From: a virus
DNA length: 42,549 bases
Direction: 5' to 3' (one strand)
Virus record (IMG/VR): IMGVR_UViG_3300018080_000288
Location: 1-42,549 of that record
The position numbers were made by a program, and so were the translations under genes. The stretch's first letter is position 1; the number at the start of each line of letters is the position of its first letter. The notes beneath the pieces were generated by a model that was given only the letters and a program-made list of their open reading frames with translations, was not told the DNA's origin and ran no database searches. Below, in pieces: positions 4,727 through 42,383 of this stretch.

Positions 4727-5197
4727 CTATTGCTCGACGGAAACGATCGAGGGAACAGAACAGGGACCGAGGCGTCCGACGGCCATCTTGAAAAATTCAT
4801 ATCTCGGGACGGGAACGTCAACGTCGTCAACCTTGTATGTCGCCGGTCCCCATTTGACCCTGATCGGAGCGCCCTTTTCGACGACGTACCATCCCCGTTG
4901 ACGAAGCGCGTCACGGACTCCCGGCGGGGTCGCCGGTCCGACAACGAGAATCGGATCACTCGGTTCCGACAACCCGCTTCGATTGTGCGCCGCGACGGAC
5001 TCGACCGCGAGTTGAAATTGTTCGCCGGTATCGATGAACGGTTCAATGTCAACGATACAGTCAACAACGTCCGGGGTCCCGTCGTCCAGGTCGCAAACCC
5101 CGAAGAACAAGTCGATCTTGATCCATTCATCCGCCGTTACAAACATCGGGATCGCCAGGATCGCAAGAATCAATAGAATCGCCGTTCGCTTCTTCAT
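4727..5197 (-). CDS. Exported protein with Fn3-like segment
   Basis: 156 aa. A classic signal peptide (MKKRTAILLILAILAIPMFVTADE) would be cut after TA or ADE, so the protein is exported through Sec. Mature residues about 55-85 (QLAVESVAAHNRSGLSEPSDPILV) look like the final strands of a fibronectin type III domain. Three cysteines could form disulfides in the periplasm. GGAGGAAAAACGAA precedes the ATG. Exported proteins outside the lysis set are unusual for a lytic phage and could alter the envelope of the infected cell; this is inference. Confidence 0.7.
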   Translation of the reverse strand: MKKRTAILLILAILAIPMFVTADEWIKIDLFFGVCDLDDGTPDVVDCIVDIEPFIDTGEQFQLAVESVAAHNRSGLSEPSDPILVVGPATPPGVRDALRQRGWYVVEKGAPIRVKWGPATYKVDDVDVPVPRYEFFKMAVGRLGPCSVPSIVSVEQ

Positions 5198-5438
5198 TTC
5201 GTTTTTCCTCCATGATCGCATTTAGTTTTTTCTGGCAGGTGAACGCGAGGCCGTCAATCGCTTCCCGTTCTGCGTCCGTCTTTGCCTTGTTCCGTTCGTT
5301 TTGAAGAAGGTTCAAGAGGGATTGAAGGCGTCCTTCTTCGGATCTCCCGTGAAGTTTGCCTTGAGGCTTTTTGAAGGGGCGGGGGTTCAAGAGGATGTTT
5401 TCCTCGGGGACCGTTCTTCCTTTCCAGGGATGACGCAT
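5127..5438 (-). CDS. Hypothetical helical protein overlapping a membrane-protein frame
   Basis: 103 aa. Residues about 35-75 form a good amphipathic helix pair (RLQSLLNLLQNERNKAKTDAEREAIDGLAFTCQKKLNAI). The ATG at 5436-5438 has a weak GGGAG 11-13 bases upstream. It overlaps two neighbours out of frame: the transmembrane frame at 5254-5547 and the start of the exported protein. Could be a separate small protein or the continuation of the transmembrane frame through a +1 shift. Confidence 0.5.
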   Translation of the reverse strand: MRHPWKGRTVPEENILLNPRPFKKPQGKLHGRSEEGRLQSLLNLLQNERNKAKTDAEREAIDGLAFTCQKKLNAIMEEKRNEEANGDSIDSCDPGDPDVCNGG

Positions 5439-5547
5439 ACGCTTTGTTCTCCCGTTCGTCCCGCATCTTCGAGGCGACAAGAATCGCCCATATCATAAGA
5501 CCGGCCGCGGCGAAGATCAGGATCACCAAAAAGGTTAAAGGGTTCAT
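5254..5547 (-). CDS. Single-pass membrane protein
   Basis: 97 aa. N-terminal transmembrane helix (MNPLTFLVILIFAAAGLMIWAILVAS) followed by a charged stretch; the last 60 residues are low-complexity and overlap another frame by 185 bases. Start strongly supported by GGAGG and by ATGA coupling to the portal-like membrane gene upstream. The arrangement (membrane anchor plus overlapping helical frame) recalls i-spanin organisation, but there is no lipobox in the second frame. Confidence 0.55.
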   Translation of the reverse strand: MNPLTFLVILIFAAAGLMIWAILVASKMRDERENKAYASSLERKNGPRGKHPLEPPPLQKASRQTSREIRRRTPSIPLEPSSKRTEQGKDGRRTGSD

Positions 5548-6143
5548 TCCTTCGGTTCCTCCGTTTGTTTGCGATCGGGGACCGCATAGAGTTTGAACGA
5601 GTCCGACCCGTCCGGCCGGGATCGCCGGGGCGTCGTCCCCGCGTTGAAAATCAATCGGATCTGATCACAAGGACCCGGCCGCGAGGATCCTCGACAAAGC
5701 GGGGATCCGCCGGATCCGGTGTTCATGAGGGTTCGGGTCGCCTTCCCGATGGTTTCGGGATCGAGGCCGATCGTCTTGTTCATTGATTCGAGAATCTTTT
5801 TCGTGAATTCATCGAAGTTCCCATCGCTCGAAAAATTGACCGGCTCGCCGTCCTTCAAATACTCAATGTCGCCCGGTTGAAGGTCTTCGTCCTTCTTCCT
5901 CGGGTCGATTGCTTCCATCCCATAGGGAAGGCCGCGCATTTGTCCAGGTCGCCGGGGCGGGCTGAAATGATAGGCGACCGGCCGTCCCTCTTCCTCTTCG
6001 TCCTTGTTCTCCCTCTTTCGGCCGAACATCCCCATGATCCCGCCGACGATGAATAGAATCACAAGGACAGTCCCGAGGGAGAACCCGTCGAGGGCGTTCA
6101 CGATAAAGAGGACGACCGCGGCGTCAACGATGAATCGGATCAT
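5544..6143 (-). CDS. Membrane-anchored protein with truncated portal-like domain
   Basis: 199 aa. Two hydrophobic helices (about residues 3-18 and 23-40) are followed by a cytoplasmic linker (GRKRENKDEEEE). Residues about 53-74 (GRPVAYHFSPPRRPGQMRGLP) match the conserved portal segment at residues 243-262 of this phage's own portal, which reads GRPMVFHFFPRLRPGQSRGIP. Residues about 89-130 (QPGDIEYLKDGEPVNFSS, then FDEFTKKILESMNKTIGLDPETI) match portal residues about 317-366 (EPGAIEYLAGGQKITFSD...FNSFVELVVRSIGAALGLPYELI). About 45 portal residues between the two blocks are missing. The remaining C-terminal tail has no portal match. GGGGG precedes the ATG. This is not a working portal; a decoy, exclusion or assembly-interfering role is inferred. 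Confidence 0.72.
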   Translation of the reverse strand: MIRFIVDAAVVLFIVNALDGFSLGTVLVILFIVGGIMGMFGRKRENKDEEEEGRPVAYHFSPPRRPGQMRGLPYGMEAIDPRKKDEDLQPGDIEYLKDGEPVNFSSDGNFDEFTKKILESMNKTIGLDPETIGKATRTLMNTGSGGSPLCRGSSRPGPCDQIRLIFNAGTTPRRSRPDGSDSFKLYAVPDRKQTEEPKE

Positions 6144-6169
6144 GTCGATCCCCCTTTCAGTTCTTCGCT

Positions 6170-6880
6170 TTATGCGAGGATCTTCTTTGTTACGACGTTC
6201 CCTTCTAACCATTCTTTGATTCGCTTGATCGCCTCGATCTTCCATCTTCCGCCGTCCGACTCTATCAAGCGACAAACGATTTCGCTTCCGGCCCCTTGTT
6301 GCATACGGAAGACGAAGGTTGATTCCGGTTGCTCGATTTCCGGGAAGGTTCGGAACGGTTTCAAAGTGACCGGGTTCGGGACCTTCACGTTCTCGACCTT
6401 CGCGATCCCTGCCCTTGCCGTTGTCTCTTGACTGATCCCGTCGTCGGCGATCGACAAGGTTGATTCGGCCCGGAGGTTGCTCAAGAGGCGAAGCAAGGAC
6501 TCGCGGTCCTCGGTTTCGACGAAATTCGATTGAAGCATAATGATGAAGTCTTCAACGGGAAGCGCCCGCAGTTCGAAAGAAGACGCGATCGCTTCGAGAT
6601 ATGTCGGTCGTTGAAGAAAGGACCCCTTTAATTGACCGCGGACCGTGACCAAACACGGATTTACGATATGAACGAAGGAGTTTTCGTCGAATCCGCTTTC
6701 TCCCATTTCAAGATAATCGCAAAGCGAGGACAAGGTCGAAACGCGGACGAACTCCGGTTCGGGATCCTCGACCGGAGAAAGGCCGCTCCCGAGTGTGTGA
6801 TACTTGCGGCCGTCGATCGTGATGATCGCTTCCGGCTTTTCCTTCCGCTCGAAAATCAATTCAAGTGCATCTCTCAACAT
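6170..6880 (-). CDS. Conserved phage protein of the replication region
   Basis: 236 aa. The sequence follows a pattern I associate with a widespread phage family: an N-terminal AIITIDGRKYH strand, VRVSTLSSLCDYL, a conserved FIIMLQSNFVETEDRESLLRLLSNL block near residues 115-137, then DDGISQE and NPVTLKPFRTFPEIEQPESTFVFR near 170-195, ending with ESDGGRWKIEAIKRIKEWL. Such genes usually sit beside the gene type found next to it at 6884 and near recombination functions. DUF2303 is a possible but unconfirmed relative. Function unknown. Confidence 0.78.
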   Translation of the reverse strand: MLRDALELIFERKEKPEAIITIDGRKYHTLGSGLSPVEDPEPEFVRVSTLSSLCDYLEMGESGFDENSFVHIVNPCLVTVRGQLKGSFLQRPTYLEAIASSFELRALPVEDFIIMLQSNFVETEDRESLLRLLSNLRAESTLSIADDGISQETTARAGIAKVENVKVPNPVTLKPFRTFPEIEQPESTFVFRMQQGAGSEIVCRLIESDGGRWKIEAIKRIKEWLEGNVVTKKILA

Positions 6881-6883
6881 GGA

Positions 6884-7246
6884 TCATTCCCCCTTTTTCT
6901 TTCCGTTCATTTCGACGACCTTCCCGTCCCCCTTTTCATCGAAGAGGGGAAGCGTCTGTTTGTACTCCCTCGCGATCCCTTTTCCGTGAGCGGATCCGAA
7001 AGAACACATTGTCTTGAATGCGGAGTCGGCGACAAGTTTCGACTTCGCCTCGATGAATATCGACCCGATACTTCGCTTTTCATCCGGTTTGATCTTGACC
7101 TTGAGGGTCACTTCCCGGACTTCGTCGGGTTTCGTGTTCGGGTCCATGATATTGTCGAGGACCTTTTGAAGTTCGTCTTGAAACTTCTCGACCGCCGCGC
7201 CGTTGCCCAATGTAATCAAGGTGATCGGTTCATCGTCTGTGATCAT
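6884..7246 (-). CDS. Conserved phage protein, 'replication terminator'-type in some annotations
   Basis: 120 aa. Shows the pattern NGAAVEKFQDELQKVLDNIMDPNT...REVTLKVKIKPDEKRSIGSIFIEAKSKL, which is common next to replication genes in phages. Automatic pipelines sometimes name such proteins replication terminator, without experimental support that I know of. AGGGGGAACC precedes the ATG. The pairing with the gene at 6170-6880 is itself typical and strengthens both calls. Confidence 0.75.
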   Translation of the reverse strand: MITDDEPITLITLGNGAAVEKFQDELQKVLDNIMDPNTKPDEVREVTLKVKIKPDEKRSIGSIFIEAKSKLVADSAFKTMCSFGSAHGKGIAREYKQTLPLFDEKGDGKVVEMNGKKKGE

Positions 7247-10705: not shown

Positions 10706-10930
10706 TCAGGCGTCGCCCGATGCCCGCTTGACCGGCCCGCCCTCAATCCATGCGACAAGATCGCGTTCGAGGATGACCTTCAAGCGGGACCCCTTCCATC
10801 GGGGAAGCGCCCGGAGGTTTCCGGCCCGGATCGCGTTCATTACGGTTCGATAAGAACATCCCGCCTTGAGCGCCGCCTCTTGCGGCGTGAACCGTTTCTC
10901 GATCTCGGCGAGTTTCCTTTTCTTCTTCAT
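10706..10930 (-). CDS. Small helix-turn-helix regulator (excisionase/MerR-like)
   Basis: 74 aa. The segment FTPQEAALKAGCSYRTVMNAIRAGNLRALPRWKGSRLKVILERDLVAWIE is a typical HTH_17/excisionase-type winged helix-turn-helix: helix, turn at AGCS, recognition helix RTVMNAIRAG, and a wing ending in a W-I-E helix. GAGGGGAAGACG precedes the ATG. The leader carries a perfect palindrome just downstream of a promoter, so this protein may repress itself. No integrase is present, so a regulatory role is more likely than excision. Confidence 0.8.
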   Translation of the reverse strand: MKKKRKLAEIEKRFTPQEAALKAGCSYRTVMNAIRAGNLRALPRWKGSRLKVILERDLVAWIEGGPVKRASGDA

Positions 10931-10961
10931 CGTCTTCCCCTCGTATCTGAATTGACAAAGA

Positions 10962-10979
10962 TTCACGAACTTTCGTGAA
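10962..10979. promoter_or_regulatory. Palindromic operator candidate
   Basis: Perfect inverted repeat TTCACGAA-NN-TTCGTGAA, located between the promoter at 10988-11017 and the helix-turn-helix gene, around +2 to +20 of the expected transcript. Position and symmetry fit a dimeric repressor site. Confidence 0.68.
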
Positions 10980-11939: not shown

Positions 11940-12818
11940 TCAATCTTCCCATTCGTCCGACAGTTCCAGAAGACGCGCCTTGTAATCGTCTTCCTTCCGA
12001 ACCTCTTCATCATAGATCGACCTATCGAGGACCCCCTCAATGTGTCGCCTGATCAGGTCGGTCAAATACTGCGGTTCAAGGGCGTCAAGTTCCCAGGAAT
12101 CGGAACCATGTTCGGCGATGTATCCGTTCGCCCGCGAGTCCGTGATCTTCGCCGGGTTCGGCGGGGGTTCCTTCTCGATGACCTGATCCATGTTCAAGGC
12201 GATCCGGCGGATCTCGATGTCAACCCCGAACGTCGCGAAGCGATCGCGGATGTCCCGGGTCATGTCGATGCCCGACGGGTCGTGATCCCCGAGATGAAGA
12301 ACAACGACCGATTGACCGTTCCTTCGCTTGTAACCGGCGATCCGCATCGCCGCGCCCCATGCCTCGGACTGTGAAACGTATCCCCGACACGAAAAGAACG
12401 GGACATCGAGGTCGCCGCAAACCCCGGCGATCACGCCGGTCAAGGCGTCCTTCTCGATCCAAACTTCGACGCGCCGCATCTGTCCGGCCCATCGATCGAC
12501 CATGAATTGACTCGCGCAAGCGCGAAGGATCTCGCCCGGGTTTCTCCAATGGTTGTTACCTCGAAGATTCCGGGTCCGGTCAACGATACTTTCCCAGGAA
12601 ATCAAACCGGCGAGGCGACCGTCGGACACGATCGATCCGAGGCGCTTATACTCCGATTGCTTGTTCGGAATGAGGTCCCGGGCGACAAACTGATAATAAA
12701 GCTGTCTCAAGGTTAAGTCGTATCCCTGCGCCGCGTATTCATCGATGATCGTGTTCGCCTTCTCGATGATTTCCAGGGTCGCCGGGGCGAAGTTCTTTTC
12801 GATGTATTGAATTTTCAC
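11940..12818 (-). CDS. TOPRIM protein, Topo VI-A/Spo11-like
   Basis: 292 aa. An N-terminal winged-helix part (TLRQLYYQFVARDLIPNKQSEYKRL...SDGRLAGLISWESIVDRTR, residues 36-83) is followed by a TOPRIM fold: VEVWIEKDAL with Glu122 and Lys123, then VVVLHLGDHDPSGID with Asp178 and Asp180. This order and the DHDPSG motif match the A-subunit of Topo VI and Spo11. The catalytic tyrosine would lie in the N-terminal part; LYYQF offers candidates. No B subunit is present, so a full topoisomerase is unlikely; a DNA nicking or recombination role is possible. The start is GTG, supported by GGAAGGGGAAGAC. Confidence 0.78.
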   Translation of the reverse strand: MKIQYIEKNFAPATLEIIEKANTIIDEYAAQGYDLTLRQLYYQFVARDLIPNKQSEYKRLGSIVSDGRLAGLISWESIVDRTRNLRGNNHWRNPGEILRACASQFMVDRWAGQMRRVEVWIEKDALTGVIAGVCGDLDVPFFSCRGYVSQSEAWGAAMRIAGYKRRNGQSVVVLHLGDHDPSGIDMTRDIRDRFATFGVDIEIRRIALNMDQVIEKEPPPNPAKITDSRANGYIAEHGSDSWELDALEPQYLTDLIRRHIEGVLDRSIYDEEVRKEDDYKARLLELSDEWED

Positions 12819-21255: not shown

Positions 21256-23799
21256 TTACCATGTGGGCGTGACGCCTTCGACCGATCCCGTGAAGAAGGC
21301 GAACTCTTGTCGAATCTTCGTCGGCGAAACGTTGACGGACCATTCATAAACCGCGTCCCCGACCGGCGACAGTTTTCCGCCGACAACCTGGAACCCGGCG
21401 AACGCCTGGACCTTGCTTCTCGAAATACAAATCGCGAACCCGGGGTTGAACTCAAGGTCCCGGCTCGACACAAGACAAGCGACCCGGTCCGGTTCATCGA
21501 GCGGGTTTTCGAGTCCTTCAATCAATGCGAGATGCCATCCGAGGGAACTCGCGCCCCGGGCGTATGCGCTCCCCCAATCATAAACGAGCGATTCATCGTA
21601 ACCCGAGTCCCGGATCCCGTTCATTATTTGCCAATTTCCGTTGTCGGGATCCTCGCCGCCCGGGACCCCCGGATAACTCCACGTCAACCCCTCTTTTTCT
21701 TCCGTGATCCCGAGGTTTTCATAAGACCATCCGCCCGGATCGTTGTAATCCCAAACGCCGTTGATTTGATTCCAGGCGTATATATCAATCCCGAGGACGA
21801 CCCATAAGGTCGGCGTGAAATTATTCAACGTGTAATGATTTGAAGAACATTCTCCCCGAGTCGAAATCCGGCCGGTGTATCCGTCATGAACCGCCGTGAA
21901 CTCGACCGTGCCGACCGAATAGTCCCCATAAAGCGACGCCGCGCTCGCCTTCCAAACATCGAACCCGGGCGAGAATTCAAATCCGGTCGGTTTACCGACA
22001 TATAGTTGTTCCTCTTCCGCCCCTGCCCACGGATCCGTACATCCGCAACCATCATAACTATTAGTGCATTGAGTCCCGGAAAGAGAAAAGTTTTGTGTGA
22101 TCCTCGGGGTCTGCCTGTATCCATAAAGATAAACCGTCGGGGTTCCTTCCTTCCCGAACGCGAGTCCGAAGGGGACCGGCCCGATGTTATCCGTATTGAC
22201 GCATTCATCGTCGAATTCGTGACCGTCATAATCGACGTTGACCGAAGCGGATCCGCATCCGGTCGAAGTCGTGCAAAATTCTTCATCGCAATCGCCGACC
22301 CCGGACCACATATAAGAAACGCACGGGTCCCCGTAAATGTTGTCCTCGCAGTATCGATAATGATCTTGCCAATCGACGCAATATTCGTTTTCATAGCACC
22401 AATAAAAGCCGACGGGCGCTCCGTTGTGTTCAAGATAACAATGTCCGTTGCAAGGGTCTTCCGTGCAATCTGCGTATTCCCCGTTCGTCGGACAGTACAG
22501 GCGATGACAACAAGGATAGGTTGAGCAGATAAGACCATTACTTATGCTTTTGAGTTCACAATCGAATGGACCGAGAAGAATGTCGCAAGCGTTGTTATAT
22601 ACGAGGTCCCCGAGATTCATCGGAAGGGACTCCGGGTCGTCCTCGGTCGAGGCCGCGTTCCCTTCACAATCGGTGATTCGGTGTTCATCGTCTTCGAGTT
22701 CTTGAAGGACGGAATAATAATAAACCGCCTCGGTTGTCATCGCGAGCGTTTCTTCATCGACGTTGACCATGACGACCGCATAACGGCCCGCGAGATACTT
22801 CCCGGACGCCGGGTCGATCGAACAAATGACGCCGACCCGGAACGGATAGGCGTCCGCGAAGGCGACGGCGTAAACATCGTCAAGGCCGGTGAAACTCGGT
22901 CCCGAGAACCCGAGGTCGATCCATTTCGATTTTAAAGCGTTCTCGATATTGATCGACCGGGAATGCTCGTTGACCTTCCATCGAAGATAATTCCCGTCCA
23001 TGTATGCCATATAGAAGACGCCGCACATTTTAGGATTCGTCTGAAACCCGATGATAACGGGATCGGTCCATCCGTCGCCGTCCGCCTGTCCGCGGAATTT
23101 AACGACGATTTCGTCGTCTTCGGCAAAGGCCGCATGATCGCAAGACATATAATCGAACGGGACATCTTCAAGATCCGAGTCGCTTTCGTTGACATCGAGT
23201 TCGACGGCGTTAATCGGTCCGAATGATGTCGCGTCCTCGATGCGGACCGTCGCGGTCCCGAGGTCCCGGTCGATCGAAAGGATCGTTCCTCGCCGGAAAA
23301 GGGGTCGCCATCGTTGCCACCCGGGAAGCATCGCGAGGTTATAAAACGCCGCGGCCGGGGATTCCGTGACGGCGTGAGTCATGATCCCGTGATCCGCTTG
23401 ACTATACGCCGCGTCGTCGTCGAACCCCGGGGCGATCTGAACGGTCCCGGCGTCGCCGTTCCCGGGAAGTTCCAGGGTCCCGACGATCCCCGTCAAGCCG
23501 GTCGTGTAATCCGCGCACCATACCGTTTTTCGAGATGTCTCCGGGGCGTTGTCTTGCATATACTCTTTCCGCTTTTCCGCGGATAACTTGTGAACCTTCG
23601 CGAATTTCAATTTCGTTTGAAGTCCGACGTTGTCCGGGTCCCCGGCGAGTTGAGTTTGAAGGTCGGCGATCTCCGCGGTCAAGACGGCGATCCGGTCGTC
23701 GAGGTCGGCGATTATCGCGTCATACTTCGACCGATCATATAGAACGTCGATCGTGTATTGACCTTGTCCGTCTTCGGAAATTATCTCGCCCTTGCCCAT
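21256..23799 (-). CDS. Large tail-tip or central tail protein
   Basis: 847 aa. The N-terminus (GEIISEDGQGQYTIDVLYDRSKYDAIIADLDDRIAVLTAEIADLQTQL) is a beta strand pair and coiled coil typical of phage proteins encoded after the tape measure. The body is beta-rich. Residues about 420-560 hold more than 25 cysteines in an EGF-like or knot-like spacing. ATG overlaps the upstream TAA (TAATG). Probably part of the tail tip; contacting the host surface is plausible. Confidence 0.65.
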   Translation of the reverse strand: MGKGEIISEDGQGQYTIDVLYDRSKYDAIIADLDDRIAVLTAEIADLQTQLAGDPDNVGLQTKLKFAKVHKLSAEKRKEYMQDNAPETSRKTVWCADYTTGLTGIVGTLELPGNGDAGTVQIAPGFDDDAAYSQADHGIMTHAVTESPAAAFYNLAMLPGWQRWRPLFRRGTILSIDRDLGTATVRIEDATSFGPINAVELDVNESDSDLEDVPFDYMSCDHAAFAEDDEIVVKFRGQADGDGWTDPVIIGFQTNPKMCGVFYMAYMDGNYLRWKVNEHSRSINIENALKSKWIDLGFSGPSFTGLDDVYAVAFADAYPFRVGVICSIDPASGKYLAGRYAVVMVNVDEETLAMTTEAVYYYSVLQELEDDEHRITDCEGNAASTEDDPESLPMNLGDLVYNNACDILLGPFDCELKSISNGLICSTYPCCHRLYCPTNGEYADCTEDPCNGHCYLEHNGAPVGFYWCYENEYCVDWQDHYRYCEDNIYGDPCVSYMWSGVGDCDEEFCTTSTGCGSASVNVDYDGHEFDDECVNTDNIGPVPFGLAFGKEGTPTVYLYGYRQTPRITQNFSLSGTQCTNSYDGCGCTDPWAGAEEEQLYVGKPTGFEFSPGFDVWKASAASLYGDYSVGTVEFTAVHDGYTGRISTRGECSSNHYTLNNFTPTLWVVLGIDIYAWNQINGVWDYNDPGGWSYENLGITEEKEGLTWSYPGVPGGEDPDNGNWQIMNGIRDSGYDESLVYDWGSAYARGASSLGWHLALIEGLENPLDEPDRVACLVSSRDLEFNPGFAICISRSKVQAFAGFQVVGGKLSPVGDAVYEWSVNVSPTKIRQEFAFFTGSVEGVTPTW

Positions 23800-25409
23800 T
23801 ATTCATAAACTTCCATGTTCGACTGAAAAAATTGATCGGTCACGTTCACATAAAAGGAAATCGATTCAACCGTGAACGAGTTCCCGTCATACGTTGCGAG
23901 ATGCCCGGGTTTGAGATACCAATCGGGGACCGCGCAACGGATCGTATATTTTCCGTCGGATACGCTTCGATAAGTGACGAAGTTCAACGGCGATTCCCTG
24001 TAATCGAATGTCGTCGTCTTGTGACCTTCGAGCGTGATCGTCTTCGAACTCGTTCCTTGGTATGTCCGAACCGCGTCAAGATCGACCCGGATGATTTCTT
24101 CCCGAAGTTCCTCGACCCCGGCAACATAAGCAACCATCTCAATTACAAGTTCGCCGTTCGGCCGGTCGGCGATCTCTTCGGCATAGTCGAGGCCGGGGAC
24201 CTGGACGGAAAGGAAGGATTGCGATCCGGTCCGCATTCTCGCTTGAAGGCTTTTGATCGGAAGTTCGACATCCTCTTCCCCATCGGGAGCGCCGGTCAAG
24301 GTGCATTCGTAACGATAGGTCACAAGATCCCGGCGGGTCGCGATCCATTGTGAAAAATTGAATCCGTCGATCGTGTCCCCGAAATCCATCGACTCGGGAA
24401 GAGTCTTCGCCGCCTCGCGCTCGCGGTCCGAGGAATCCCCGAGGTCGGCGTCGTCTTGAATTTTCCCGGTCATGTTGACGCCGTCGATCGTGTCCCCGAG
24501 GTCCGCGTCGTCCGTCAAAACTTGTGAAAGGCTGAAAGCGTCAATCGTGTCGTCGAGGTCCGTGTCGTCCGTGACCGTGTTTGTTTCATACTCGACGTTG
24601 ACATCCGAGGAATCTCCGAGGTCGGCGTCGTCAAGAACGAATCCCTTCGGGGCGGATCCGTCGATCGTGTCCCCGAGGTCCGCGTCGTCCGTGAACGATC
24701 CATAATCGGGCGAGGCGTTCATCGAGTCCCCGAGGTCCGTCCCGTGGGTTTGAGTCGCCGTGAGACTTGTTCCGTCGATCGTGTCCCCGAGGTCCGCGTC
24801 GTCCGTCTGATCTCGATAAGGCGTGTCGGCGTCCATCGAATCGCCCATCGCGACGCCGTCCGTTTGTGAAACTTCTTCGGTCGTTGAATATGAAATGTGA
24901 AGTTCCGCTTTTTCCGCCGTATCAAAATCATAGGATGAAAAGATCACTTGCGGAGCGGCCGAACCTGGACGAATAAGAATGGTCATCGCGTTGCCGCTTG
25001 ACCATCCCGCCCGGTTGACGATCTCTTGAACGATCGTTTTGATTTCGGGCGAATCAATCGTGTCGCCGTCCGTCCAGTTTTGCGAGGCGAAGGCGTTGAC
25101 GGTTGCGGTTGTCTTGTTCGCGTTGATTACATCGTTTGAACTTGAGGGTTGAGCGAAGTCGTCTTCATCGACGCCTATGATCTCGATCGGATTTGCGTTC
25201 GCGCCCGAACGAGTATTCCAGGCAATCGCCCGAAAAAAGGCGCTTGTGATCGTTGTCCCTTGCGGAATTGTAACGTTTTGCAGACGGATTCCGCCGCCCC
25301 ATCCCGAACCGGCCCGCCAATAATCCGCGGTCTTCGAGAAGGATCCGCCGCCGGGGACATAATACCAATCGTCCCCGGATTCGGATATATAGAAGATCGA
25401 GGTTCCCAT
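23799..25409 (-). CDS. Tail protein with DNRLRE-like domain and acidic repeats
   Basis: 536 aa. Residues 1-178 resemble a DNRLRE/CBM96-type jelly-roll domain (IPQGTTITSAFFRAIAW, AMTILIRPGS, EKAELHISYS), a carbohydrate-binding fold. Residues about 182-350 are nine repeats of about 19 residues with the core TDDADLGDTIDG. The C-terminal 180 residues are beta-rich (YECTLTGAPDGEEDVELPIKSLQARMRTGSQSFLSVQVPG). GGGGGG precedes the ATG. Likely a tail-tip protein that binds surface sugars. Confidence 0.72.
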   Translation of the reverse strand: MGTSIFYISESGDDWYYVPGGGSFSKTADYWRAGSGWGGGIRLQNVTIPQGTTITSAFFRAIAWNTRSGANANPIEIIGVDEDDFAQPSSSNDVINANKTTATVNAFASQNWTDGDTIDSPEIKTIVQEIVNRAGWSSGNAMTILIRPGSAAPQVIFSSYDFDTAEKAELHISYSTTEEVSQTDGVAMGDSMDADTPYRDQTDDADLGDTIDGTSLTATQTHGTDLGDSMNASPDYGSFTDDADLGDTIDGSAPKGFVLDDADLGDSSDVNVEYETNTVTDDTDLDDTIDAFSLSQVLTDDADLGDTIDGVNMTGKIQDDADLGDSSDREREAAKTLPESMDFGDTIDGFNFSQWIATRRDLVTYRYECTLTGAPDGEEDVELPIKSLQARMRTGSQSFLSVQVPGLDYAEEIADRPNGELVIEMVAYVAGVEELREEIIRVDLDAVRTYQGTSSKTITLEGHKTTTFDYRESPLNFVTYRSVSDGKYTIRCAVPDWYLKPGHLATYDGNSFTVESISFYVNVTDQFFQSNMEVYE

Positions 25410-36881: not shown

Positions 36882-37745
36882 GATTCCGACCCCTCTCTTG
36901 ATTTGAGTGTAGGTTTGAACGAGTGACGCCGTTTCGTCAACGAGTCCCCGTTCCTTTGCCTGTTCTGCTATCAAAACCGCCGATTCAAGATCCCGGACCG
37001 CGTCCGGGGACATCCGCCGCGCCGGGGCGACATCCGCGACGAAAATCGAATATATTTCATCGACACGCGCTTGAATATACTTCCGACCCTCTTCGGACAA
37101 CGGTTCAACGTCCGTTCCGATCGCCTTGAACGCGCCGTTGTAAATGTGTGTGACCTTCAATCCGATTCGTTCGAGCAATCGCGAGCGGTCAACGTGTGTC
37201 GCGATAATCCCGATCGACCCGAATTGAGCGGTCGGGGTCCCGATGACTTTGTCCGCCCGGGACCCGATCCAATACGCCGCCGACAACATTTGACCATCGG
37301 AAAAGGCGACGGTCGGTTTCTCGATCGCGCCGATGACATCGGCGAGTTCCTTTGTTCCCGCGACCGTCCCCCCGGGCGAATCAATGTGAAGAAGAATCGC
37401 CTTGATCGCGGTGTTCGATGCCGCTTCGAGAAGTTCCGCGGCGACGGCGTCCGAATCAACCCCGTCGAACAACCATCGCGAGAAACCGCCCATCCGCCGA
37501 CCGATCGGACCCATGAGTTTGAAAATCGCGATCCCGTCTTCGGTGATCTCATAATAAGCGTTCCGCCGAACGTCGCCGTCCGCCTGGACGATCGCCGAAT
37601 CGTTGATCACACGGGGAAGGGATCCCGGCTCGATCGCCCATACAATCGTTTCCCCTTCGCCCGGGTTCACGACGGCCGGGGGATCCGTGTTATCCGAGGT
37701 CACGACCTGGAAGGGCGGATCATTTGTTCCGGGTTCTTTCTTCAT
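36354..37745 (-). CDS. Prohead protease/scaffold, S49 family
   Basis: 463 aa. Residues about 60-280 form an SppA/S49 serine protease: AILLHIDSPGGTVAG, then DGQMLSAAYWIGSRAD with the nucleophile Ser155, and YNGAFKAIGTD with the general base Lys207. The C-terminal 175 residues are charged and helical and act as scaffold, as in lambda gpC. It processes the prohead. GGAGGAACCGAAGA precedes the ATG. Coupled with the portal gene. Confidence 0.92.
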   Translation of the reverse strand: MKKEPGTNDPPFQVVTSDNTDPPAVVNPGEGETIVWAIEPGSLPRVINDSAIVQADGDVRRNAYYEITEDGIAIFKLMGPIGRRMGGFSRWLFDGVDSDAVAAELLEAASNTAIKAILLHIDSPGGTVAGTKELADVIGAIEKPTVAFSDGQMLSAAYWIGSRADKVIGTPTAQFGSIGIIATHVDRSRLLERIGLKVTHIYNGAFKAIGTDVEPLSEEGRKYIQARVDEIYSIFVADVAPARRMSPDAVRDLESAVLIAEQAKERGLVDETASLVQTYTQIKRGVGIMDMNELKKDFRSVYDEVIEIGRNEVTKEDAAKRFPEIADDARTEGERTGAEKERTRIEEIREAAFEGQGELVEKLIKDGVSADEARKQILADQKKKAKDGLDGMAGDDAGSMGDNLNGDDGAGTGKITAKDKREAGDKLAEIATEKQSAEGITFEEAFNRACKEHPELAKMYDGK

Positions 37746-39301
37746 TCTTCGGTTCCTCCGGTTTGTCCGGGGATTGCTTCTTCCTCTTCGTCGTCGTCCA
37801 CGTCCTCGCCGTCCATAATGAACGGGATCCCGAGGAATTCATACTTGTCTTTCTCGCGGGCGATCTGTGTCGCCTTCTGTTCCCAATCGTCGCCCGACTC
37901 CGCGCATACATCGGCCCGGGACTTGAATCCCATCGAAACGGCGATCTTGTTCGCTTGTGTTTCTTTCAAGGGATCGACGGACTTCCATCCGGGCGGGGTC
38001 CAGAGTGCGCGAGTGTATTCCCATTGATTGCGATAAAAATCGCCGACCGGGAGTTCTCCCCGAAGGAACGCCTCTTCGATCAGGATTTCATAGACGGGTT
38101 GACAAAGATGATCGATGATCAGTTGTTGAAGATCCTGAAAAACTCGATACGCTTGAAGAAGCGCCGCCCGCGCCGATGAATAATTCGTCTTGCTGAAATC
38201 CTTGAAAATCAGTTCATACGGAAGACCGAGCGCCGCGCCGATCGATCGAACAACGAGTTCAACGAATGAGTTGAACGTGTTCCCCGGACGCTTCGGATCC
38301 GAGAAGGTAATCTTCTGTCCCCCGGCGAGGTATTCAATCGCCCCGGGTTCCATCCCTTCCAGGCGTTGACCCGCATCATTCGTTTGATCCGATCGACCAT
38401 ATCCAACCGTATACGGATTGTCGGTTTCGACGAAAGCGGCGAAACACGCGCCGACCCTCGCCGCGACAAGTTCCGCCTCCATGTAATCGGCCAGGATCTT
38501 GAACGTGTCGAGGACCGGGGCGAAGAAGGGGATCCCCCGGGATTGTCCAGGTCGAAGACGCGGGAAAAAGTGAAAGACCATCGGGCGACCCTTGGAGTCA
38601 TACGCCGGAACCGGTTTTGAATCGTTGTAACCGTTGACCGGCGGACGTGAATCGCCCGGATGATACATGAGGAAGTGATAGTTTGATGGAACCCCGTTCT
38701 TGTCCTTCTCGATTCCGAACTTGACATTCGACCCGGTGATCGACCTCTTCGGGTCGTCAAGGCGATCCCCCTCGATCGCTTCGAGCGCGAGAAGATATGG
38801 TCGCCGCTTCGGATCCTTGATCGCCCGCCGGACGAAGATCGATTCGCCGCTTTCCAGAATTTGACGGACCGCGAGGGATTGCAGTTCGTTGAAATTCATT
38901 TGAAGATCGGACGACGCCGTCGGAACCCATCGGGAATAAACCTTCTCCGCGGCCGTCTGAAACGCCTTCGCCTTTTCGTCGTCGATCCCGATCGCCTTCG
39001 AGTCGATCACGCTTTGAGGTTTCAACCCGTTCAAGATCGTGTTGTTGACAACGGTTCCGGTCGCGCCGGACGCAATTGCGTTGTTCCGGTTGAGGTCCCG
39101 GGACTTGCTTCGGATCGTTTCGATGTATCCATCGATCGTCGTGTCCGCGGATTCAATGCCGGTTGTCCAATTGCTTGTTAAGCGGGTCGGCGATGCGCCG
39201 GAATAATACGTCGCGGAAAGGTTGAGGAAGTGACGCGCCGCGACTCTTTTCGCGGCCCGGACCGGGGAAACCCATGAAACGACTCGGTCGGAAAGATGCA
39301 A
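37742..39301 (-). CDS. Portal protein, lambda gpB type
   Basis: 519 aa. Signature features of the lambda portal family: NNAIASGATGTVVNNTILNGLKP near 73-95, HFFPRLRPGQSRGIPFFAPVLDTFKILADYMEAELVAARVGA near 244-285, EPGAIEYLAGGQKITFSDP near 318-336, and LGLPYELIFKDFSKTNYSSARAAL near 358-381. The 12-subunit ring is the DNA gate of the head. No ATG fits; TTG at 39299-39301 has AAGGGGG five bases upstream, so I use it. A TTG at 39314-39316 overlapping the previous stop is an alternative. Confidence 0.93.
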   Translation of the reverse strand: MHLSDRVVSWVSPVRAAKRVAARHFLNLSATYYSGASPTRLTSNWTTGIESADTTIDGYIETIRSKSRDLNRNNAIASGATGTVVNNTILNGLKPQSVIDSKAIGIDDEKAKAFQTAAEKVYSRWVPTASSDLQMNFNELQSLAVRQILESGESIFVRRAIKDPKRRPYLLALEAIEGDRLDDPKRSITGSNVKFGIEKDKNGVPSNYHFLMYHPGDSRPPVNGYNDSKPVPAYDSKGRPMVFHFFPRLRPGQSRGIPFFAPVLDTFKILADYMEAELVAARVGACFAAFVETDNPYTVGYGRSDQTNDAGQRLEGMEPGAIEYLAGGQKITFSDPKRPGNTFNSFVELVVRSIGAALGLPYELIFKDFSKTNYSSARAALLQAYRVFQDLQQLIIDHLCQPVYEILIEEAFLRGELPVGDFYRNQWEYTRALWTPPGWKSVDPLKETQANKIAVSMGFKSRADVCAESGDDWEQKATQIAREKDKYEFLGIPFIMDGEDVDDDEEEEAIPGQTGGTEE

Positions 39302-39664: not shown

Positions 39665-39944
39665 AATCGGCGTCGGGGTCGTAAACCTTGTCCCCCGACT
39701 TTGAGATGTACCGAAGAAAATGATCGAGGTTGTCGGCGTGTGCGCGATAAGATCCGTCGAGGATCACGACCGGCATTCCGATTGCGATCCATCGAACGAA
39801 GACTTCCTCGCCGATCTTGCAATACTTCATGATCTTCCGCTTCCCCCGGAACCATCGCGGATTACAATCGTCCTTATCGTCGCCGTTCGTTCCGTTCGTT
39901 CCGTTCTTTTTCAAACCCATTTCTTCCCGCTTCGCTTTACCCAT
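39663..39944 (-). CDS. Small basic protein after large terminase
   Basis: 93 aa. The N-terminal 35 residues are basic and glycine/asparagine-rich; the C-terminal part (YCKIGEEVFVRWIAIGMPVVILDGSYRAHADNLDHFLRYI) is folded. Overlaps the terminase 3' end by 34 bases. GGGGGG precedes the ATG. No family recognised. Confidence 0.65.
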   Translation of the reverse strand: MGKAKREEMGLKKNGTNGTNGDDKDDCNPRWFRGKRKIMKYCKIGEEVFVRWIAIGMPVVILDGSYRAHADNLDHFLRYISKSGDKVYDPDAD

Positions 39945-41803
39945 GAAGACCCCCCTTTCCTGGTGAATGATTCTTTGCGCGAGGACGGATGATCCGTCTT
40001 CCGCGGTTGCGGATTTGGTTCGTTGATCGTGTGAGCGCCCGCCCGAATCGCGGCCGCATAAGCATAAACGAAGTCATCGAGGGCGTGATTTTTCCGGCGG
40101 ATCGCGACCCATTCCTTCCGAACGTATCCCTTGTGAAGTCGCTCGACGTGCTTTTCCGCGGTCAATTCTTGATAAAGTGTGTCGGGATACCCGATCGGAA
40201 AATGAATGAATCCGGGTCCAGGGTTCGCGATCTTGTAACGGGAATAGATCGTCGATTTTGCGACATCGGTTCCGACGGTCCAGAGAAGGACGCCGCCCTT
40301 GATCGTTTGCCCCATGTATGCGACATCCTGTTTCGTCGGTTTTCTGATCAGGGGGGAGTTCATTTCCGAAGCGCCCTTGACCGCCATAACGACGGGTTGA
40401 CGCTCCCGGGCGTATCGGTAAACCGCTTGTGTCGAGTGACCGCCGGAATCGACCCCGGCCGAAACAACGTTCATCTTCCCGCCGCCCTCGACTTCGAAGG
40501 CCCGATAAATTATCCCGTCGAGTTGTTTCCATACGTCCTCTTGATTTGTGTCCCCGAAGAGTTCCCCGTATTCGATGATCCATGCTTCCTCGCGAGCGCC
40601 CCATCCGACAACGAGATATGAAAGGAACGTGTCCATAACATCGACCCCGGCCGAAAGAAGGCGAACGTCACGCGGGACCCGGCCGGGTTCATACGCTTCC
40701 GCCCGGACCTTGAGTTCGGACCATTCCGGTTGATCGCCGACTTCTTCATACGGTTCGCCCTTGCGCGTGTTCACCCAAACTTTCATTTTTTCCGGGTTGC
40801 CGACCGCTTCGAGAAATTCCTCGACGACCTGTTTCCAGGAAACCCAACCGACCGGAGAATACAAGGACGATATTTGATAACCGCGCCGCGGCCGTCCGGG
40901 ATGCGTCGGAATCCATTTTCCCTTTTCGAGCATTTCGGTTTTGTGATGTTCGTCGATCCGCTCGCCGCATTCCGCGCATTGATAACAAACATCGACGACG
41001 ATCCCGTCGGGATCCCGCTCGAACTTGATCCCGAATTCGGCATCCTTCCCGCCCCATTCCAGGCGTTGAAATTCCTCGCAATATGGACACGGGACAAAGT
41101 AATAACGTTGATCGGACGTGTTGAAGTATGCCTCGATCGCGCTTGTTCCCTTTTCAAGCGGCGTCGAGTTGTAAAAGATTTTTCTTCGTGTTCCGTATGA
41201 ATCGGTCCGCTTCTTCGCGAGGGCGAGGGGATCCCCTTCGCCGGGGATGATCTCAAATCCGTCGATGTCATCGAGAAAACAATTTTTGACCGACATCGAT
41301 CGGAAGTTCGCCCCGGAGTTCGAACCGCTCAACCAAAGATAACCGTTCGGAAACGACTTCCCGAGGATTGTGTTTTCGCCGTCCCGTGAGCGCCGCGGAA
41401 GGATCTTCCCTTTGAGTTTCGGAGTCGCCTCGATGCCCGGGGTCAATTTTTGTTTCGAGTGTTTCGTCGCGAGGTTGTCGGTCGGGAAGACCGCCATCAT
41501 TGAACAAGGGGAAACGTCAACCGTGTGAAAAATCCAGTTGTTCCCGCATTCCGTTATTCCGAGTTGAGTCGCCTTCATGACGCCGACTTCCTCGATGCCG
41601 GAATGAGGTCCGAGACAATCCATTATTTCGCGAAGATACGGGGTCCGCGAGGTTCGATATTTTCCCGGTTCGCTCGACCCCTTTTGAGGCAACCATCGGA
41701 ACCTATCCGCCCAATCGGAAATTTCAAAGAACGGATCAGGTCGAAGCGACGCCGCGATCGCTTGCGCGATCCTCGCCGTTGCTGAATCGTTCGAGGATAG
41801 CAT
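39911..41803 (-). CDS. Large terminase subunit, GpA family
   Basis: 630 aa. ATPase: Walker A-like MKATQLGITECG near residue 77, Walker B CFLDDIDGF near 175-183, coupling motif YNSTPLEKGTSAIEAYF near 211-227. Zinc-binding loops CPYC and CYQCAECGERI. Nuclease part starts with the Asp motif SAGVDVMDTFLSYLVVGWG near 395, and a later Asp-rich segment NHALDDFVYAYAAAI. It cuts and packages DNA with the small subunit. I chose the ATG with GAGGA upstream; an in-frame TTG lies 15 bases earlier. Confidence 0.95.
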   Translation of the reverse strand: MLSSNDSATARIAQAIAASLRPDPFFEISDWADRFRWLPQKGSSEPGKYRTSRTPYLREIMDCLGPHSGIEEVGVMKATQLGITECGNNWIFHTVDVSPCSMMAVFPTDNLATKHSKQKLTPGIEATPKLKGKILPRRSRDGENTILGKSFPNGYLWLSGSNSGANFRSMSVKNCFLDDIDGFEIIPGEGDPLALAKKRTDSYGTRRKIFYNSTPLEKGTSAIEAYFNTSDQRYYFVPCPYCEEFQRLEWGGKDAEFGIKFERDPDGIVVDVCYQCAECGERIDEHHKTEMLEKGKWIPTHPGRPRRGYQISSLYSPVGWVSWKQVVEEFLEAVGNPEKMKVWVNTRKGEPYEEVGDQPEWSELKVRAEAYEPGRVPRDVRLLSAGVDVMDTFLSYLVVGWGAREEAWIIEYGELFGDTNQEDVWKQLDGIIYRAFEVEGGGKMNVVSAGVDSGGHSTQAVYRYARERQPVVMAVKGASEMNSPLIRKPTKQDVAYMGQTIKGGVLLWTVGTDVAKSTIYSRYKIANPGPGFIHFPIGYPDTLYQELTAEKHVERLHKGYVRKEWVAIRRKNHALDDFVYAYAAAIRAGAHTINEPNPQPRKTDHPSSRKESFTRKGGSSWVKRSGKKWV

Positions 41804-42383
41804 TTGAAAGGTCCTCAAGAATCGTTGTTATCTCTTCGTTCAATCTTCGCTCGATGTCCGTCGCCGGGATCCCCGCGAGCATCGGGGCGGTCCTCGCCGG
41901 AATGTGAATGATCGCATCGCGAACGACGCGATGAATGTCGCCGACCGCTCGTAACGTTTCGTCGGCCGGGATCAAGGTCCCCTCTTTTTCCTTGACCTGG
42001 ATCTCGGCAAGTCGCGCCTTCCATCGTTCGTTGATCGCCCGCGCCTCGGTCAAGGTCAAGTCTTCGAACCCGGTCCCCGCGACCTCTTCCATCTTCTCGC
42101 GGAACGTCGGGGATCTCTTGACCTTCGGTCCCGTCTTCGCCTTCGCCTTCTTCTTCGGAGCGGCCCGCGGCCGGGACTTCTTTTTCTTCGCCGGGGGATC
42201 CCGGGTCGCCCGTTGCTTCAAGAGGGCGTCCGCCTTCTTCGGCTCAATGAACGTTCGTCCCCCGATCCGTTTCGTCGCCCCCTTGAGTTTCCCTTGATCA
42301 ACCCACTTTCGGACCGCGGAAACGGACTTCTTCCGCCGTCGAGCATACGCGGGAATTGAAATCGGATCGGGTTCCTTCTTCAT
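41736..42383 (-). CDS. Small terminase subunit, Nu1-like
   Basis: 215 aa. N-terminal winged helix (SIPAYARRRKKSVSAVRKWVDQGKLKGATKRIGGRTFIEPKKADALL), a long lysine/alanine/proline-rich linker, then a helical oligomerisation part (TLTEARAINERWKARLAEIQVKEKEGTLIPADETLRAVGDIHRVVRDAIIHIPARTAPMLAGI) as in Nu1/DUF1441 proteins. It recognises the packaging site, which should lie in the 166 bases upstream. Confidence 0.9.
   Translation of the reverse strand: MKKEPDPISIPAYARRRKKSVSAVRKWVDQGKLKGATKRIGGRTFIEPKKADALLKQRATRDPPAKKKKSRPRAAPKKKAKAKTGPKVKRSPTFREKMEEVAGTGFEDLTLTEARAINERWKARLAEIQVKEKEGTLIPADETLRAVGDIHRVVRDAIIHIPARTAPMLAGIPATDIERRLNEEITTILEDLSNAILERFSNGEDRASDRGVAST

Follow-up and report, generated by a model that had tools for sequence, protein, structure and literature searches.

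Open reading frame P0001 of an uncultivated phage joins a short, predicted transmembrane hairpin to two segments that are homologous to lambda-family portal proteins. The explanation that we favor, at a probability of roughly 0.5, is that P0001 is an old chimeric orphan gene of portal origin, now encoding an early membrane accessory protein in which the portal role has been lost. P0001 is a singleton and apparently undescribed in the open literature searched. The window, that is, the whole stretch of DNA analyzed, comprises 42,549 nucleotides (positions 1 to 42,549 of IMG/VR record IMGVR_UViG_3300018080_000288), and the positions of P0001, its parts, and the full portal gene of the same phage are collected in Table 1.

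Table 1. Positions in the window of P0001, its start signal and parts, and the full portal gene of the phage
Feature	Positions	Strand	Description
P0001, predicted membrane-anchored, portal-derived protein	5544..6143	(-)	199 aa, intact ORF
Shine-Dalgarno-like AAAGGGGG	6150..6157	(-)	six bases 5' of the P0001 ATG; same style as in neighboring genes
Two hydrophobic helices in a predicted tight hairpin, residues 1-41	6021..6143	(-)	hydropathy and AlphaFold
Portal segment 1, residues 50-83 (GRP..HF...RPGQMRGLP)	5895..5996	(-)	lambda gpB ~226-258: end of wing, first turns of stem helix 1
Portal segment 2, residues 86-134 (LQPGDIEYL...FDEFTKKILESMNKTIGLDPETIGK)	5742..5888	(-)	lambda gpB ~320-373: second half of clip, stem helix 2, start of tunnel region
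C-terminal 60 residues of P0001	5547..5726	(-)	low coding score, unusual base composition
Full portal of the phage, lambda family	37742..39286	(-)	PF05136, E=4.5e-95; nearest known relative of P0001

The reading frame of P0001 extends from ATG to TGA over 199 codons with zero internal stops, and its stop codon and the start codon of the following gene overlap in the sequence ATGA. No sign of a pseudogene (internal stops, frameshifts, or lost start signals) is seen in P0001; the frame, the Shine-Dalgarno sequence, and the coupling to the next gene are all intact, and we infer that the protein is translated. Codon statistics are good at residues 1-140 and poor at about residues 140-180; the last ~60 residues match neither the portal nor anything else.

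The N-terminal region of P0001 is strongly hydrophobic. The 17-residue mean hydropathy lies above 1.6 in all windows starting at residues 1-27 and never above 0.03 after residue 45, and the AlphaFold model contains helices at residues 2-17 and 23-40. The two transmembrane helices of the original prediction are thus found by both approaches, hydropathy and predicted helices, and membrane anchoring is a prediction from these. The hydrophobic stretches are separated by DGFSLG and followed by GRKRENK, an arrangement from which both ends of P0001 are predicted, via the positive-inside rule, to face the cytoplasm.

The segments that follow the hairpin are those of a portal protein. The motifs RPGQSRGIP and PGAIEYL of the phage's own portal appear in P0001 as RPGQMRGLP and PGDIEYL. 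A Pfam-A search with P0001 returns a single match, to PF05136 (E=3.9e-6, 26.7 bits), BLASTP against the own portal yields 45 bits with a 44-residue gap, and hhalign against nine portals reaches 96.8% (E=2.8e-10, 86 columns, 37% identity). In addition, an HMM of the own portal clade, built without P0001, was run on 15,044 six-frame ORFs drawn from the window and the comparison loci; P0001 is the sole non-portal match, at 2.5e-6, the next value being 0.37. Conserved portal segments around RPGQ-x-RG-x-P and PG-x-IEYL, with about 45 portal residues deleted between them, had been reported from the sequence before any search was run. The Pfam, BLASTP, hhalign, and clade HMM results agree on these segments, and the BLASTP gap matches the deletion in size. 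The profile comparison with lambda-family portals on which the original prediction had staked itself likewise produced a portal match, with both Pfam and hhalign. The portal-like stretch is longer than had been claimed, however, and continues to about residue 134, where FDEF...GLDPE of P0001 pairs with FNSF...GLPYE of the own portal. The 12 bases described as identical at RPGQ in the two genes are real (ttgtccaggtcg, positions 5940-5951 and 38543-38554), with 0.01 matches expected per shuffle. In an all-against-all comparison within the window, P0001 and the portal form the one homologous gene pair, besides the antisense frames of a repeat-bearing gene. The gene at 23799-25409 (-) encodes a product rich in DDADLGDTIDG-type repeats that matches itself in antisense frames.

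The gathering score of PF05136 is 32.9 bits, and P0001 falls under this cut-off; judged from the alignments, it is homologous to the family but not a full member. A short-motif resemblance arising by chance would be compatible with a score beneath the curated threshold, but the two independent segments stand in the correct order, each finds PF05136 as its sole match when searched alone (0.034 and 2.3e-4), and no other ORF of the 15,044 comes near. Chance is therefore extremely improbable, and the portal homology is genuine.

Alignment of P0001 to lambda gpB, with domain boundaries taken from the structure of the lambda neck, shows which parts of the portal are present. In gpB, the wing comprises residues 24-249 and 368-452, the stem residues 250-279 and 343-367, the clip residues 280-342, and the crown residues 453-511 (PMC10721106). 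What P0001 keeps is the wing end, the latter half of the clip, and stem helix 2; it has neither stem helix 1 nor the first clip half, and both the post-tunnel helix and the crown are absent. As only gpB ~226-258 and ~320-373 are represented, none of the four domains is complete. Sites conserved in at least 90% of portals are kept at 14 of 18 positions within residues 53-134 of P0001 and at 0 of 7 past residue 135, where the motif of the post-tunnel helix, YSSARAALL, is absent. A hidden frameshift that would prolong the portal beyond residue 140 was considered and rejected, as none of the three frames contains a YSSARAALL-like sequence. The original prediction held that a portal ring cannot form from P0001, and we concur, given the loss of stem helix 1, of half of the clip, and of both the post-tunnel helix and the crown.

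The predicted fold of P0001 was also compared with known portals. A fold search with the P0001 model, which is of low confidence, finds no portal match, all E values lying above 7. As this model is too weak to be read alone, an uninterrupted stretch of 150 residues from the own portal was modeled in the same manner as a control; both models are of low and similar confidence, and the control retrieves lambda and Chi portals first, with E values of 1.8e-5 to 3e-4. The structure prediction and portal comparison proposed at the outset thus came out negative for P0001, whereas the true portal segment is recognized, and the P0001 model does not appear to resemble a portal.

The portal-like part of P0001 can be placed near the portal of its own phage but at a considerable distance. 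Among 200 loci, the best tblastn score for P0001 is to the own portal, followed by near relatives of this portal. In a tree of the shared columns, P0001 adjoins the clade formed by the own portal, L026, and L027, on a branch of 1.77, the longest of all tips. At residues identical in P0001 and the own portal, 16 of 33 codons agree, compared with 14.5 expected from codon usage; synonymous sites between the two genes appear saturated, and the sequences indicate that P0001 is not a recent copy. A recent duplication of the own portal is ruled out by this codon comparison, and because the codons agree only near expectation, the 12-base identity at RPGQ is no sign of recent copying. The saturation could stem from the evolution of the own portal alone. 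By these measures, either the join appears to be old or the piece derives from an unknown portal of the same broad clade.

A recent origin from another source is also to be weighed. P0001 is nearly equally distant (35-38%) from several portals, and these distances, together with the long branch and the intact conserved motifs, would be expected if part of an unknown, very divergent portal had recently been acquired from a different phage and fused by accident, with too little time since then for decay. Such a capture is quite improbable: the top scores are to the own portal and its nearest kin, and at moderately conserved sites each of 31 true portals agrees better with the portal consensus than P0001 does, which suggests a period of evolution free of portal constraint.

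This weak agreement at moderately conserved sites, lower than in all portals tested, would also fit a non-functional recombination scar, the main sober rival, in which the open frame produced by an illegitimate join is decaying and is translated solely because the operon is. Consistent with a scar, P0001 is a singleton, its C-terminal third has a low coding score and is without relatives, and the in-frame deletion destroys all domains. The 199-codon frame is nevertheless intact and has a ribosome site of its own as well as stop/start coupling; codon usage is normal at residues 1-140, the conserved motif residues are kept, and the codon pattern is less conserved than neutral drift from the own portal would leave. 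In a neutral simulation, in which the segment of the own portal was drifted to 40% identity, as seen in P0001, the frame stays open in 11% of runs and a mean of 69% of codons is kept, compared with 48% observed; this result makes a simple pseudogene less likely, although much of the divergence may predate the fusion. Taken with the intact signals, a scar is unlikely. The original prediction had stated that a fusion existing only here with decayed codons would point to a pseudogene. The first part applies to P0001; as to the second, codon usage is normal at residues 1-140 and odd only in the last ~60 residues. Against the chimeric-gene reading that we prefer stand the absence of whole-protein relatives from the collections searched and the poorly coding appearance of these last 60 residues.

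Searches of phage records, viral contigs, and genome contigs found neither relatives of the whole of P0001 nor a similar fusion of transmembrane helices to a portal piece in another phage, the comparison that had been suggested with the original prediction. A wider search with an alignment of the fragment and portals returned full-length portals only. Portal matches occur at 563 places in 561 phage records, and second portal-like places are thus very rare. No second portal-like fragment is present in the 15 records that share the gene upstream of P0001 or in 49 portal-bearing records, each of which has one portal. In thirty further records and genomes, all that appears is a handful of shortened or decayed portal pieces: a single stretch interrupted by two stops (G064), a weak match with two stops (G075), and short partial matches (G065). 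The closest phage with much of its genome available, G057/L107, has a portal at 53% and a capsid at 61%; it has the structural half in common with the phage of P0001 but none of the early-region genes, so that synteny is uninformative here. PHROGs, PADLOC, and NCBIfam yield no significant match of P0001 to an exclusion or defense family. The statement that no membrane-bound portal fragment has been described holds for the open-access literature searched, in which no description of a membrane-bound or partial second portal was found.

P0001 stands after a DUF2303-like gene (PHROG 1029), a gene of the "replication terminator" family (PHROG 997), and a replication-initiation-like gene. Given these replication-gene neighbors, P0001 belongs to the early replication region. 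Past P0001 are two small genes without family matches and then a gene with a signal-like start. On a circular genome, P0001 and the portal would be ~10 kb apart across the ends; the terminase gene lies at 39911-41818.

Several other observations concern this neighborhood. The PHROG 997 gene directly followed by the PHROG 1029 gene (6170-7246 (-)) is found as the same pair in ~14 other phage contigs, and as the pair is mostly trailed by different genes there, the spot after the pair may be a gene-exchange hotspot. Two small overlapping genes in different frames occupy 5127-5547 (-); one is a one-helix membrane ORF (5254-5547), and the other is a charged ORF that starts from an ATG at 5438 with its own GGAG. 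The coding score switches frames near 5430, which implies either a true overlap, in an Rz/Rz1-like layout, or a frameshift. The early region also encodes a DNA topoisomerase-like protein at 11940-12818 (-) (PHROG 6247, E=1.4e-110), and an 86-aa protein encoded at 10706-10966 (-) matches excisionase/transcriptional-regulator families; in passing, no integrase was noted in the window.

Prophage-like contigs from Omnitrophota, Nitrospirota, and related groups carry portals of the clade, which hints at the host, and Omnitrophota prophages may mark the nearest hosts of the P0001 phage group. The complete chromosome of Candidatus Velamenicoccus archaeovorus (NZ_CP019384.1) carries two portals of the clade (L126 and L128) ~49 kb apart.

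In the reading that we prefer, a piece of a lambda-family portal gene from the phage's own lineage would have been fused in frame to the 3' side of the sequence for a short transmembrane hairpin, and the resulting gene would have been placed in the early replication operon. Stem helix 1, the first clip half, and all parts past the tunnel region would have been deleted from the piece, and the fused gene would then have diverged as a separate protein. The hairpin would hold P0001 in the inner membrane with a tail of ~150 residues in the cytoplasm. This tail keeps those portal motifs that are the most conserved, together with a predicted helix equivalent to stem helix 2 of portals, and would no longer fold or assemble as a portal. 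P0001 would most likely act as a small, lineage-specific membrane accessory protein in early infection, of the membrane takeover or exclusion type.

The roles suggested in the original prediction (poisoning of a rival's assembly, tethering of procapsids, or exclusion) are hypothetical, since no interaction domain survives whole and no second example points to selection for them. A more specific role as a dominant-negative or decoy portal is rather unlikely. Tethered P0001 would bind, at the membrane, the portal subunits of a competing, related phage or the partners of its clip (terminase, head-tail adaptor), spoiling ring nucleation or packaging, and the phage's own portal would have to escape. 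An exclusion role of this kind is attractive because the motifs kept, which are the most conserved ones, include the second half of the partner-binding clip and because its closest portal match belongs to its own lineage, from which a rival would be expected to come. In lambda, terminase and adaptor dock on the clip, and the C-arm of the adaptor pairs with gpB 320-324 (PMC10359639, PMC10721106); these residues align to the start of segment 2. The adaptor-strand residues (KKDED) are, however, not conserved. The role is weakened further because no wing, stem, or clip is complete and the predicted model is not portal-like, because the phage's own virions would be endangered, and because no second example exists in 561 phage, 49 portal-bearing, and 30 further records. 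P0001 is early and predicted to be membrane-anchored, as exclusion proteins often are. That a piece of its own portal has been turned into a membrane-tethered inhibitor of portal assembly or packaging in related phages that enter the same cell is improbable; if true, P0001 would be a capsid-vertex counterpart of dominant-negative restriction factors.

Provided that P0001 is expressed and active, it would clearly exemplify the birth of a new phage membrane gene out of part of a structural gene, and would offer a testable route by which phages might turn parts of their own assembly machinery on rivals. If it is a scar, it would show how far a portal sequence can drift with the frame still open.

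Compared with lambda-family portals (PF05136; gpB, PDB 8k38/8xow), P0001 shares the H..RPGQxRGxP, PGxIEYL, and FxxF motifs. The main differences are that P0001 has ~85 of the ~510 residues, adds two predicted transmembrane helices, and is encoded in the early region. Similar to two-helix exclusion proteins of the T4 Imm type, P0001 has N-terminal hydrophobic helices, an early gene, and a predicted cytoplasmic tail; it differs from these in having no sequence match to such families and in that its tail comes from a structural protein. P0001 also resembles the illegitimate-recombination chimeras of mosaic phages, in which a piece of a structural gene is joined in frame to unrelated coding sequence, but unlike these it has intact expression signals, normal codon use over most of its length, deep divergence from its parent, and an in-frame internal deletion.
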